Shown one piece after another: positions 16,215 to 37,094 of a stretch of DNA of 37,094 bases. Positions within the stretch are counted from its first letter, which is position 1. Each line of letters starts with the position of its first letter. This stretch comes from a virus, in the IMG/VR virus record IMGVR_UViG_3300044641_002715, positions 1 through 37,094 of that record; one strand, given 5' to 3'. The position numbers were made by a program, and so were the translations under genes. The notes under the pieces are model-generated. The model was not told the DNA's origin. It made no database searches and was given only the letters and a program-made list of their open reading frames with translations.

Positions 16215-16891
16215 TTAATGGCTGATTTAATTTTATGCAATTTTTCCTGATATTCACTACTTTCTAAGTCATACAGCAACTTAGTATAAACTATTTCAGC
16301 AGGCATTGCTAAGACTTCATCGTGTGTCTTTCCATAAGCTATTGCCAAACGGTCAATAGTAGGAAAGCTACCAAACTTACTTAACACTTCCACCCCTGCC
16401 ATCTGTTCTTCTGCTTCAACCTCGCCTTCAAACAACTTTCTGTACTTTTCTAAAAACTCATTTATCTTATCGAATACAGGTCTAATCTTAGCTATTGCTA
16501 AAGGCAAATGTAATTCACTAATATCCTCTTTTAAGTAAATTAGCCCAACTTTATTTGCTGCTTTAATCCATGAACCACTTTGATTTATTTCTTGGCGTGC
16601 TTTCTCTAAATCTCCATAACTTTCTTTTCCTATGTTTAAATCTATTTCTAAGCCACCGTAATACTGTACTATATCTAATACATCGGTAAACCCTATTATG
16701 TCGCATAGTTTGCCAAAGTCCTCTAAACTAAATTCTAATAAGTCATCAATCGGAATGTTACTAATAATGTGTATTCGCTCTAATATCGGTCTACCTTGAG
16801 CTGAATGTATCTTAACAAAGTGTTGCCATGTCAATTCATCAAAGTTCGTAGGCACATTGTAAATCGTTTCTTTAACTTTAAGTTTAATCAT
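16211..16891 (-). CDS. Tail assembly chaperone-like or unknown virion protein
   Basis: A 226-residue acidic, mostly helical protein (MIKLKVKETIYNVPTNFDEL). The C-terminal segment IDRLAIAYGKTHDEVLAMPA resembles tail assembly chaperones that bind the tape measure. It starts with ATGA overlap on the terL stop and ends with ATGA overlap on the next gene. No slippery site or second overlapping chaperone frame was found, so I mark it as tentative. Confidence 0.45.
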   Translation of the reverse strand: MIKLKVKETIYNVPTNFDELTWQHFVKIHSAQGRPILERIHIISNIPIDDLLEFSLEDFGKLCDIIGFTDVLDIVQYYGGLEIDLNIGKESYGDLEKARQEINQSGSWIKAANKVGLIYLKEDISELHLPLAIAKIRPVFDKINEFLEKYRKLFEGEVEAEEQMAGVEVLSKFGSFPTIDRLAIAYGKTHDEVLAMPAEIVYTKLLYDLESSEYQEKLHKIKSAIK

Positions 16892-18849
16892 ACATCAAAA
16901 GTCTTTTTAAAGTTTCGTGCAGGTGCTTGTACTGTTCGTGTCATCGACTGTAAGCTATATCTAATAGGGTCAATGCAATTGTGAACTAATATGCCATTAG
17001 CAAAGTATTCGTGGCAATCTTCAACCATTAAATCATAAACGTATTCATATTTGCTTTCGCCTTGCTCGAAGTGCTTTAGCTTTGCAGTTTTGATGGCAGT
17101 ATTTTGAAACACCCCCATGTCTTGTAATGTATTCTTTTCCGCAAACTTCACAAATTTTTTCTTTATAAGGTCTATTAATCCAACCTTCTTTTGATTGTTG
17201 TATGTGCCAGTTTCTTCCCTCTTCAGATTTATGCCATTCTTTTGCTGCTTCAATTCCTTTTGCATGAAATTGCTTTGCAAATTCGGGATTGTTTTTAAAT
17301 CTTTTTTTTGCTTCAAATCTAAGATGTAATTTACCATGAACCATAGATAAATTGGTAATATCGTTATTATGCGGATTGCCGTCAATATGATGAACATGGT
17401 AGCCTTTTGGAACATTACCTTTATAATGTTTCCAAACTTCAACATGAAGCCTTTTACAGCCCCTGCTAAAGTATCTTTCGTTTGGGTATAATCTATATTC
17501 TTTTCCGTTAAAGACTTGTAATGGTACAATAAGTCGTTGCTCTGTAACTGTGATATTTGTTTCCATTCTTTTTCAGTTTTTATTTTATGTTCTTTTGTTG
17601 CACATAAAGATAATGAAAATGTATCGAATTGCATCGTGTATTTATTTACTTGTTTCAATCCGTTATTAAATTTAATTAGCACCTTCCTATAACCTTTACT
17701 TGTTAAAACTAAATCACCTTCTTTTATATCTTTTATTGGTATTTCCCCGCTAATAGTTGTAATTAACGTTTCACCTATAAAGCAATGGTTGTAGTCATCT
17801 ATCGGTATTCCTGCTTTCTTATCGTTCCAGCAATAGTTACTAAGTTCTTTCTTTAGGTTTGTTGACTGTGGCGTGATTACTATTCTATAATCTTGCATTT
17901 GGGTTATGCCGGCTGTTACGCTGCCTTGACCTTTAACCGCTCCTCGAATGTTTAAGCCCTTTCGGCTTAGTTCATCTATCAATCTCGGTTCAGCACTATC
18001 AGCAATAATTAAATCGTTTGGCTTATGTATCAATCGTTTGTTAGCTTCAAAGATTGCATCTGTACCCATGCCCGCTTGGCTGTAAAGTAGTTCTTCAGCA
18101 TAGATTATCTTTAACTTGTTATCTACTGCTACCTTAACCAACGTTGTAGGGTCTACGCTAAAACCGTAATCTTGACCGTAACAGTAAGGTAATGAATTGT
18201 CAAAGTCGCCTGTTATCCAATTAGTAAATATTGCACCCTCACGATTAGCACGTTGACCGCTTCCGTAAACCTGCCACCAATATTGATTATTCTTTCTGCT
18301 TTCAATGTCTTGTATTTGTGCTTCGGTTAAGTGTGGGTTGTCTTTATAGGTAGTTATGCAGGGTGGGTATTGGTCTATGTAAGTATCTAACCAATGTTCT
18401 AAACCTAATGCAGGGTTGTAGTCGGCTATTATCTTATGCCTTGTTCTTGGAAAAAGTTGGTCTATTGTTTCGGCAGGGAACTGATGTGCTTCATTTACCC
18501 AAAGTATATCGCGCGCGCGTCCATGTATCTTCGCGGGGGTGTCCGCGCCATAGTAACTAATAACATTGCCATTTAACTCATATTCGTGGTCGGTCTTATT
18601 ATGGTTGCTTTCTTTATAAAGGTTGCAATTAATTAAAACATCGCGAAAGTCTTTCCATGCCGTTGACTTTAGCGCGGTGAATGTATCGCGCACTATGTCA
18701 ATTTCCATACCGCGATATTGCAAACAGTAGTCAATTAAGAAAAGTATTGTTGAATAAGTCTTTCCAGAGCGAGTGCCGCCTTGAAGCAATATAACGCGGT
18801 CTTGTTCAATCTTATCGTATAGATGGGTAAAGTTAGGGTTTACTTTCAT
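16888..18849 (-). CDS. terL: Terminase large subunit containing an intein
   Basis: The 653-residue reading frame is a Terminase_3-type packaging ATPase/nuclease interrupted by an intein. Walker A is GGTRSGKT (24-31) and Walker B is DILWVNEAH (114-122). Nuclease acidic motifs are GQDYGFSVDP (about 225-234), IADSAEP (282-288) and the final DDYNH/CIDPIRY, split by the intein at Cys356-Asn624. After splicing the protein would be 384 residues, slightly short for the family. It would cut and pump phage DNA into the prohead. The first 113 codons carry many CGCG-rich codons (see the 18510-19214 island). The start overlaps terS by 17 nt. Confidence 0.9.
   Translation of the reverse strand: MKVNPNFTHLYDKIEQDRVILLQGGTRSGKTYSTILFLIDYCLQYRGMEIDIVRDTFTALKSTAWKDFRDVLINCNLYKESNHNKTDHEYELNGNVISYYGADTPAKIHGRARDILWVNEAHQFPAETIDQLFPRTRHKIIADYNPALGLEHWLDTYIDQYPPCITTYKDNPHLTEAQIQDIESRKNNQYWWQVYGSGQRANREGAIFTNWITGDFDNSLPYCYGQDYGFSVDPTTLVKVAVDNKLKIIYAEELLYSQAGMGTDAIFEANKRLIHKPNDLIIADSAEPRLIDELSRKGLNIRGAVKGQGSVTAGITQMQDYRIVITPQSTNLKKELSNYCWNDKKAGIPIDDYNHCFIGETLITTISGEIPIKDIKEGDLVLTSKGYRKVLIKFNNGLKQVNKYTMQFDTFSLSLCATKEHKIKTEKEWKQISQLQSNDLLYHYKSLTEKNIDYTQTKDTLAGAVKGFMLKFGNIIKVMFQKATMFIILTAIRIITILPIYLWFMVNYILDLKQKKDLKTIPNLQSNFMQKELKQQKNGINLKREETGTYNNQKKVGLIDLIKKKFVKFAEKNTLQDMGVFQNTAIKTAKLKHFEQGESKYEYVYDLMVEDCHEYFANGILVHNCIDPIRYSLQSMTRTVQAPARNFKKTFDV
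16978..17784 (-). mobile_element. Intein in TerL, with an out-of-frame HNH gene inside
   Basis: The insert is 269 codons, from Cys356 to Asn624 of TerL, with Cys625 as the +1 residue. Block A is CFIGETLITTISGEIPIKDI, block B is LCATKEHKIKT, and blocks F/G are YDLMVEDCHEYFANGILVHN followed by Cys. Between B and F the TerL frame is a long hydrophobic/basic filler with no endonuclease motif. An HNH endonuclease is encoded there in a different frame (17045-17566). The insertion splits the last nuclease motif, YNH^CIDPIRY, a highly conserved site typical for inteins. Unspliced TerL should lack nuclease activity. Confidence 0.9.
17045..17566 (-). CDS. HNH homing endonuclease, nested out of frame in the intein
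   Basis: A 173-residue HNH_3-type endonuclease. The core is GYHVHHIDGNPHNNDITNL followed by MVHGKLHLRFEAKKR, holding the His/Asn/His residues, preceded by a DNA-contact module (EYRLYPNERYFSRGCKRLHV). The C-terminus has a possible zinc-binding pair (ICEVCGKEY, KYCHQNC). It has its own ATG in an A-rich context and its own stop. The frame differs from TerL by one base throughout, so it overlaps intein codons 429-602. It would cut intein-free terL alleles and spread the insertion. Confidence 0.85.
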   Translation of the reverse strand: METNITVTEQRLIVPLQVFNGKEYRLYPNERYFSRGCKRLHVEVWKHYKGNVPKGYHVHHIDGNPHNNDITNLSMVHGKLHLRFEAKKRFKNNPEFAKQFHAKGIEAAKEWHKSEEGRNWHIQQSKEGWINRPYKEKICEVCGKEYITRHGGVSKYCHQNCKAKALRARRKQI

Positions 18850-35553: not shown

Positions 35554-36500
35554 AATCCAAATTTACTTGAAAAATATTGAATAACACTTGTTTCATTTGC
35601 TCCTGTTACAATGGCGTTATAAATAGCTATTTCTACTGTTACAAATTGCGCAGGAACGCTTGTGTTGCCTAATCTAAAACCAACCCCTGCTGTTACTCCT
35701 GTTGCCCCTACTAATCTATTTAGTAAGTCGTTTATTCTGATTTCAAACGCTGTTGAACTAAATGTGAATTTTATTAAAAAATACTCACCAACAGGATAGG
35801 CTGTATACGTTTGTGTAGCACCATTAACTACATAGCTCATTGAGTTAGCTAATGTAGTTATGAATTGGGTTGCTGATGTGTCTGTAATTAAATTTCTGTT
35901 ACCTGTAAAAACTGCTGTATGTTTTAGAAGTATAAACACAGTATTACCATTAGGTCTAATATACAGCACGTTTGAATTAGCTAAAGTATCATTAGTTCCA
36001 TCTACTAATGCCCCCCCATAAACGTTACCATCGGGTGCAGTAATTTCTGTTTGATTATATGTTGGTCTATTTGCTGCCGTTCCTTGAGTTAAGTGATAAG
36101 CATTAGCAGTGTCATCATTCCATTGAGATATTACACCGCTTACCAATGTCATATTACTTGGGCTTGCGCCTTGTGGGGCTTTATAATACGCTTGTAAGTT
36201 TGTCTGAACTATTGTCTGTAAAGTAACTACTATAAATCCTACCTTAGTTTCTATAGCTCCTGTTGTAGCGTTTTCGGCTGCTAATGTAACAGTGTAAGTG
36301 CCTGCATAACGATAAGACTTTGTAGGGTTCTGTAATGTTGATGTAGTGCCATCACCAAAGTTCCAAACCCATGAAGTTGCACCTACTGTTAAGTCGGTAA
36401 AGGTTACGGTTTGGTTGGTGTCGGGCGTGGCATCATTTACGCTGAAATCTACGATTAGCGATGCACCCCCACTTGGTAATCTAAAACTTCCTACTGCCAT
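35544..36500 (-). CDS. PKD and LamG-like adhesin / receptor-binding structural protein
   Basis: A 318-residue protein. Residues about 15-95 form a PKD domain (SFRLPSGGASLIVDFSVNDA; WVWNFGDGTTSTLQNPTKS as the typical WxFGDG core; YAGTYTVTLAAENATTGAIE). From about 100 on is a LamG/concanavalin-like beta sandwich (AYYKAPQGASPSNMTL, VISQWNDDTANAYHLTQ, VFILLKHTAVFTGNRN, FKFTFSSTAFEIRINDL). Such pairs bind carbohydrates on the host surface. It starts inside the end of the fibre gene (overlap 10 nt) and is followed by two small genes and the holin. Confidence 0.7.
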   Translation of the reverse strand: MAVGSFRLPSGGASLIVDFSVNDATPDTNQTVTFTDLTVGATSWVWNFGDGTTSTLQNPTKSYRYAGTYTVTLAAENATTGAIETKVGFIVVTLQTIVQTNLQAYYKAPQGASPSNMTLVSGVISQWNDDTANAYHLTQGTAANRPTYNQTEITAPDGNVYGGALVDGTNDTLANSNVLYIRPNGNTVFILLKHTAVFTGNRNLITDTSATQFITTLANSMSYVVNGATQTYTAYPVGEYFLIKFTFSSTAFEIRINDLLNRLVGATGVTAGVGFRLGNTSVPAQFVTVEIAIYNAIVTGANETSVIQYFSSKFGLWE

Positions 36501-36740
36501 ATCTGTAAAGTTACTCCTATATTTCCTGTTGGCAAATTTTTGGCATACACTTTTACCCCTCCAGATTGTGCATCTGTTTTAGGCAATATTTGTGCTGCTA
36601 TTACTATATCTATATCTGCATTATTTGGTATTATATCAACACTACTTGACGCTGTTATATTTGCGTTGCTTAATACTTGTTCTTGTAATCCTGATACTAA
36701 ACTCCACCCTGCTGTTGTAAGCGTTGCACTCGCTTGTATA
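36457..36740. repeat. Right copy of the near-identical terminal repeat (partner 1-284)
   Basis: Same sequence as 1-284 with no difference in the first 126 bases and scattered mismatches after. It covers the end of the fibre gene copy and the start of the PKD/LamG gene. After 36740 the sequence differs completely from positions 285 onward. Confidence 0.85.
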
Positions 36741-37094
36741 AATCTATTTTGCTTGCCGTTAAATGTACTCCAATCTGCACTACTTAAAGCACCTCTATTT
36801 AATGCACTTGCGGTCGGAAGATTGAATGTATGTGTATCTGTTACTGAATTTATTGCAAAATCAGTTCCACTTGTACCTGTTGCAAAGTTTTGTACTTGAG
36901 CAATTAAGCCATTTAGTGCCGTTAAGCCTGTTGAAAAAGTAGTTATTACTTGACAAAGGTTGTTATCTTCTGTATGTAAAGTTACAGTTCTATTGCCTGA
37001 TGTATTTACATGTACTCTTACAGCTAGCCTATCAGTAGCTAATAATGTAGTTTGTGGTACAGGTATTGCTGTAGTATATAAATCTACTTGAGTA
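36491..37094 (-). CDS. Second version of the tail fibre, C-terminal part only
   Basis: The partial protein (201 codons to the edge) shares its last 80 or so residues with the fibre at 35-1084, but its upstream part is unrelated: DRLAVRVHVNTSGNRTVTLH, NSVTDTHTFNLPTASALNRG, LSSADWSTFNGKQN, the last being a recurring segment of Bacteroidota phage fibre proteins. The start lies beyond the window. This is either an allele of the same gene in another strain or a second fibre gene. Confidence 0.7.
   Translation of the reverse strand, partial: TQVDLYTTAIPVPQTTLLATDRLAVRVHVNTSGNRTVTLHTEDNNLCQVITTFSTGLTALNGLIAQVQNFATGTSGTDFAINSVTDTHTFNLPTASALNRGALSSADWSTFNGKQNRFIQASATLTTAGWSLVSGLQEQVLSNANITASSSVDIIPNNADIDIVIAAQILPKTDAQSGGVKVYAKNLPTGNIGVTLQIWQ

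Follow-up and report, generated by a model that had tools for sequence, protein, structure and literature searches.

In textbook inteins, splicing and homing are fused: canonical large inteins carry their endonuclease in frame, and those of the HNH type place it in the linker of the Hint domain, as part of one bifunctional polypeptide. In gp41-1 type split inteins, or fractured genes, the endonuclease lies between the two halves. A further arrangement is that of the ShiLan domain and Pacc40 "hidden HNH" insertions of mycobacteriophage methylases, which, in the passages of the 2025 report that concern them, leave the host frame open, occupy a conserved site, encode an HNH endonuclease in another frame, and bear signs of mobility (PMC11855218). 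In group I introns of the I-TevI type, too, a splicing element houses an ORF for an endonuclease, which has a promoter of its own and a homing-site-like operator; for the T4 enzyme I-TevI, autorepression has been tested and the operator resembles the homing site and overlaps the promoter, and similar putative sites accompany I-TevII and I-TevIII (PMC2988022).

The TerL intein described here lies in a stretch of viral DNA of 37,094 nucleotides (IMG/VR record IMGVR_UViG_3300044641_002715; hereafter the window), and it divides splicing and homing between two genes on the same DNA. We consider it very probable that it is a mobile, presumably splicing-competent intein and that its homing endonuclease is encoded by a gene of its own, nested in the linker in another frame. 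With canonical HNH inteins, such as that of L139 (Armatimonadetes), it shares the placement of an HNH in the Hint linker, but it comprises two proteins in overlapping frames where these are a single bifunctional polypeptide. With gp41-1 type split inteins it shares a related Hint domain and an endonuclease gene that stands apart from the splicing protein, yet its own splicing protein is a single chain, whose open frame overlaps that of the nested HNH. The ShiLan and Pacc40 insertions, as portrayed in those passages, have no splicing domain, are thought to be retained in the host protein, and are described without an operator (PMC11855218), whereas the window intein possesses splicing blocks A, B, F, and G, a Hint fold, and a putative operator. 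Compared with the I-TevI type, the host element is an intein instead of a group I intron, and autorepression is a prediction. The earlier note had held that this arrangement is not a described class; this is right only in part, as an out-of-frame HNH within a non-splicing phage insertion had been published (PMC11855218). A preprint on non-canonical actinobacteriophage inteins (10.1101/2025.01.02.630785), cited in PMC11855218, may describe some members.

The host gene terL occupies positions 16888–18849 of this 37-kb virus record, on the minus strand like all features of this locus discussed below, and encodes 653 residues with matches to Terminase_3, Terminase_3C, and phage_term_2. It is uninterrupted by stops across the intein and is partitioned into an N-extein (17785–18849), an intein of 269 codons (16978–17784), and a C-extein (16888–16977). 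Profile matches, the alignment, the structure, and an empty site in the phage contig L240 together delimit the intein, which runs from C1 to HN|C+1 within D-D-Y-N-H^C-I-D-P-I-R-Y. Both the splicing motifs and the Hint fold of the intein superfamily are present. Blocks A (C1), B (T63-x-x-H66), F (D251, H258), and G (H268-N269) as well as Cys+1 are all in place, the block residues inside the intein being invariant across 37 aligned relatives. The ORF, the profile matches, and this alignment thus bear out the claim that the TerL frame stays open through an intein with intact blocks. Searched separately, as the earlier note had proposed, the splicing profiles (Pfam Intein_splicing and TIGR01443 intein_Cterm, in the intein frame) and the HNH profile (HNH_3) all exceed their cut-offs.

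AlphaFold prediction in the intein frame, based on an alignment with rows from the window, viral contigs, and genome contigs, yields two confident halves (pLDDT about 95) separated by a middle of low confidence. The Hint N half (residues 1–91; 17512–17784; pLDDT 86–97) holds blocks A and B and matches the Mtu RecA, gp41-1, and Npu DnaB inteins; the Hint C half (residues 229–269; 16978–17100), with blocks F and G, is supported by a profile match, the alignment, and the AlphaFold model. Foldseek aligns the intein model with true inteins in the PDB (Mtu RecA, gp41-1, Npu DnaB, and others) with a probability of 1.00, and gp41-1 is also the top PDB match by sequence profile. Between the halves, residues 92–228 (17101–17511) are predicted to be disordered, with pLDDT below 50 over 92–140 and 142–228. 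The splicing domain is thus a mini-intein, about 130 residues in size, that is interrupted by a disordered insert in the part overlapped by the HNH gene. This filler had been noticed from the sequence at the outset as hydrophobic, and it is so because the NAT codons of the HNH (His, Asn, Asp) are read one frame over as ATN (Ile, Met). Two PHROG families, phrog_35162 (TerL residues 473–559) and phrog_30251, match this shadow-frame filler at 17101–17511, and some orphan protein families may therefore stem from nested HNH genes read in the shadow frame.

The nested gene is a complete ATG-to-stop ORF of 173 codons (17045–17566) in the −1 frame relative to the intein, in agreement with what had been read from the sequence alone. 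Its ATG is made of the last base of codon 73 and the TG of the invariant Trp74 codon, and its stop falls within the Hint C region, 22 codons ahead of the intein end and not 24 as first counted. The HNH_3 motif (HNH residues 39–75; 17342–17452) is detected with an E value of 1.1e-11, above the cut-off; the protein also matches PHROG HNH families. Residues H60, N68, H81, and other His, Asn, and Cys residues are invariant in the family, as is a C-terminal, zinc-ribbon-like element with four cysteines (C139, C142, C157, C161; 17084–17152). The structure model is confident (pLDDT 88), with no significant fold match in the PDB. The endonuclease thus lies outside the intein frame, unlike that of a canonical bifunctional (large) intein, and the window intein is one ORF, unlike a split intein, in which HintN and HintC occupy separate ORFs. 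That this is a nested, functional HNH gene is close to certain.

The arrangement recurs widely. An HNH query collected 80 IMG/VR loci, in which HintN, HintC, and HNH were each located independently and an open frame was not required. Among them are 47 distinct inteins, the window's included and mostly exactly 807 nt long, with the HNH in the same register and not a single stop in the intein frame; the third frame of these inteins contains 22–47 stops in nearly all cases (8 in L065). Addition of GTDB genomes, phage records, and two more viral scans extended the set to about 78 nonredundant loci in the register of the window (register 1) and 32 in the other (register 2), all defined by an open frame, so that zero stops there are partly by construction, which is not so for the 47. 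In all, more than 100 further viral or genomic sequences share the double-coded design. In a census from a HintN query, blind to the HNH, all contiguous TerL inteins retrieved from the D-N-H / D-A-x-R-Y site proved to carry a nested HNH. The design is old and common in phage terminases of many host groups. Named or cultured phages with a nested HNH include Tetrasphaera phage TJE1, Acinetobacter phage Highwayman, and Rhodobacteraceae phage MD07 (L083, L085, and L086); in each, it is unannotated within an annotated terL, an instance of how annotation overlooks such genes by showing terL only. In L138 and L238, the host protein of a register-2 nested HNH intein is not TerL and is possibly a head morphogenesis protein.

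Other states of the same HNH family coexist with the nested one. At 13 loci, HintN and HintC are on separate ORFs with a same-family HNH between them, forming a split intein. In Lactobacillus phage CL2 (L089:1-4940), HintN ends the N-terminal TerL ORF and is followed by the HNH and by an unannotated ORF with HintC and the C-terminus; the host gene is likewise divided by a split intein in L093, L094, L101, L102, L105, L109, L113, L117, L119, L177, L226, and L231. The remaining HNH relatives are mostly free-standing. An in-frame homologue, had one existed, would have spoken against the earlier reading; none was found for the window HNH, and its Hint-flanked relatives are all out of frame or split with a separate HNH, the one in-frame fusion among relatives being the distant HNH core of L139.

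The absence of stops is far from what the HNH gene alone would produce. When the window HNH is recoded with the codon usage of the phage, 7.7 stops are expected in the intein frame, which stays open with a probability of about 5e-5; when its own codons are shuffled, that chance is 6e-3. Across register 1, 5.0 stops are expected under host codon usage and 2.9 with shuffled HNH codons, and across register 2, 16.6 and 9.5; none is observed in either. In contrast, HNH relatives that lie within split inteins have 7.7 stops observed versus 7.6 expected (range 4–14), and free-standing relatives 8.8 versus 8.7 (range 1–22).

Codon-position analysis resolves what is maintained in each part. Divergence in the filler peaks at position 3 of the HNH codons (0.42 vs. 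0.20 and 0.25), while in the Hint-only DNA on both sides of the HNH, variation is highest at position 3 of the intein codons; where the C-terminal end of the HNH overlaps block F, both frames are constrained (0.11, 0.15, 0.20). Within the filler, changes that are silent in the HNH and alter the intein exceed expectation threefold (59 HNH-synonymous changes observed vs. 19 expected), and HNH-altering changes reach roughly one third of expectation irrespective of their effect on the intein residue, a pattern which implies that the filler is kept open without its sequence being conserved. Selection keeps the amino acids of the HNH throughout, those of the Hint domain at both ends, and the filler merely free of stops. 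The proposed check for second-frame conservation is answered positively by the HNH frame, whereas purifying selection in both frames, also raised in the earlier note, operates at either end of the HNH, the filler being constrained only against stops.

These observations bear on three other accounts of the locus. Frameshift errors from sequencing or assembly could make a canonical intein look like one with a nested gene, given that canonical large inteins have an in-frame endonuclease and that L139, with its distant HNH core, is such an HNH intein. However, 47 distinct inteins share one register with no stop, a second register has a large group of its own, and annotated phage genomes exhibit the same arrangement; the reading was rejected on the strength of the 47 inteins, and we regard it as scarcely credible. 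Splicing at the RNA level is no more credible: phage terL genes can contain introns, as in ICP1 (PMC10448857), but Rfam gave no intron family, the Hint fold is intact, and the frame is open. A group I or other RNA element was rejected for want of a relevant Rfam match. If ribosomes reached the HNH by programmed frameshifting out of the terL frame, the product would be a HintN-HNH fusion and not a separate protein, and this would be compatible with the −1 position of the HNH in register 1. Yet the conserved ATG is closely preceded by a stop in the HNH frame (median 12 nt; ATG in 71 of 78), no conserved slippery heptamer is found near the HNH start, and register 2 would require a different (+1) shift, which renders frameshifting highly improbable. 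A separate HNH gene nested in the linker remains the reading that we carry forward.

Evidence for mobility comes from occupied and empty alleles at one site and from an element whose history is unlike that of its host gene. The L240 contig carries the empty site D-D-Y-N-H|L-I-D-P-I-R-Y in a TerL 98% identical in protein to that of the window, with DNA 92% identical over 3.4 kb. Among 300 pairs, median identity is 34% for TerL and 57–70% for HNH and Hint, HNH similarity exceeds TerL similarity in 289, and HNH identity correlates with HintN (rho 0.69) and much less with TerL (rho 0.22). Across very different terminases, insertion is usually into the conserved D-N-H / D-A-x-R-Y region, near the TerL end. 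The empty site and the far greater likeness of the inteins than of their host TerLs indicate, at the level of sequence comparison, that the intein is mobile. With an HNH motif whose catalytic residues are conserved, the nested protein very likely has a homing role, in which it would cut the empty allele.

If the endonuclease has its own expression, as the earlier note surmised, signals may be sought in the Hint coding DNA upstream, and promoter-like and operator-like elements there now lend support to that suggestion. The octamer TATCTTTA (17605–17612), a putative promoter element, is a one-mismatch version of the Bacteroidota −7 box TAnnTTTG (consensus from PMC7366714); the host of this phage is a presumed one, and the window shows no clear −33 element. 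In relatives, the box is fixed at −46 from the HNH ATG: TAnnTTTG occurs exactly there in 16 of 26 divergent inteins, compared with 11% under synonymous recoding, and it is present in 24 of the 155 nonredundant upstream regions, compared with 0.0012 per position. Furthermore, codon identity rises 1.3–1.6 fold over expectation at −74 to −33 (elsewhere 0.9–1.2, with a second rise near −110 to −81), a peak of synonymous-site constraint that takes in both this box and the operator-like element described below, one serine codon is TCG in 18 of 18, and register 2 has its own peak of synonymous constraint directly upstream of the HNH start. An SD-like sequence (Shine-Dalgarno) precedes just 10 of 78 HNH starts. 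We judge it likely that the HNH gene has its own promoter.

Next to the box, 69 nt upstream of the ATG and in the conserved block of the Hint coding sequence, lies GATGCAATTCGATAC (17621–17635), an exact match to the DNA coding for D-A-x-R-Y, the homing-site motif of TerL, which the intein reads in another frame; it is a putative operator. With at most one mismatch, the homing-site pattern GAYGCNNTNMGNTAY occurs upstream of the HNH in 33 of 61 register-1 and 8 of 21 register-2 members, compared with 0.35–0.8% of windows elsewhere and 0–1 for codon-shuffled patterns; the pattern was formulated by inspection of the conserved block and tested afterward. One lineage contributes 20 of the 43 register-1 matches obtained with up to two mismatches, and in several other lineages D-A-x-R-Y is in the intein frame, so that constraint on the Hint protein could explain those. 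A TATAAT overlaps the homing-site copy in 7 of 23 register-1 members outside the −69 lineage versus 0 of 19 real targets, a post hoc and weak difference (p 0.011). On balance, the data lean modestly toward an operator that mimics the homing site and mediates autorepression.

Two further accounts concern what the HNH and its upstream region do at present. The HNH could serve packaging together with the terminase, in the manner of the HNH proteins of HK97 or GVE2, given that HNH genes near terminases can aid packaging, as two reports relate (PMC10448857; PMC5304195), and that free-standing HNH relatives adjoin terL. Nonetheless, the gene resides within a mobile intein at a conserved site, is missing from a near-identical phage with an empty site, has diversified together with the Hint domain rather than with TerL, and has an upstream region that copies the insertion-site motif; a packaging role in place of homing is accordingly improbable. 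The homing-site copy itself could be a relic, carried along with its flank when the HNH came from a free-standing spot downstream of terL and devoid of regulatory function now. The free-standing L082, L087, and L088 have a similar motif 41–56 nt upstream, which in L082 lies within the real terL end. Against a relic, synonymous sites near the block are constrained in two registers even though the encoded amino acids vary by lineage, and a promoter-like box stands at fixed spacing beside the copy; we therefore hold it to be rather unlikely, though it deserves more weight than packaging.

According to the favored reading, a nested homing gene in a splicing intein, translation of the terL frame would run through Hint N, the disordered filler, and Hint C to give a precursor, from which the Hint domain would excise itself to release active TerL. 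The HNH protein, presumably translated in the −1 frame from its own start codon, would cut terL alleles that lack the intein, at the conserved site coding for D-N-H^x-D-A-x-R-Y, and the unit as a whole would thereby home. In Bacteroidota-type members, a promoter within the Hint N coding DNA probably drives the HNH gene, and because this promoter adjoins the homing-site copy, the endonuclease may well repress itself as I-TevI does. A homing-site copy at the HNH promoter would carry I-TevI-style autorepression from introns to inteins.

More broadly, we see an even chance that these elements constitute a widespread phage intein class with an autonomously regulated, linker-nested endonuclease gene, a promoter in Hint coding DNA, and a homing-site copy as operator, and that nested and split states may interconvert. 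Interconversion between nested and split (fractured-gene) inteins is conceivable since a stop in the shadow frame would yield a split intein and a free-standing HNH; if true, it represents a concrete route to split inteins. With one HNH family occurring in nested, split, and free-standing form, the origin of split inteins becomes testable. A tree with a clean single origin of the nested state was not recovered, 17 state changes being required and many branches being weak. The locus also provides a natural system for the evolution of overlapping genes, with dual-coding, single-coding, and stop-avoiding zones side by side.

Several minor observations accompany these results. In the closest intein relative of the window (L007:1974-2600), the C-terminal part of the HNH differs and has an extra zinc finger, and both frames are open. 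L078:3437-4636 comprises a mini-intein of 130 residues and a separate same-family HNH downstream, possibly an instance of collaborative homing. Toward its two ends, at positions 1–298 and 36457–36754, the window record has a 298-nt direct repeat with 96% identity.
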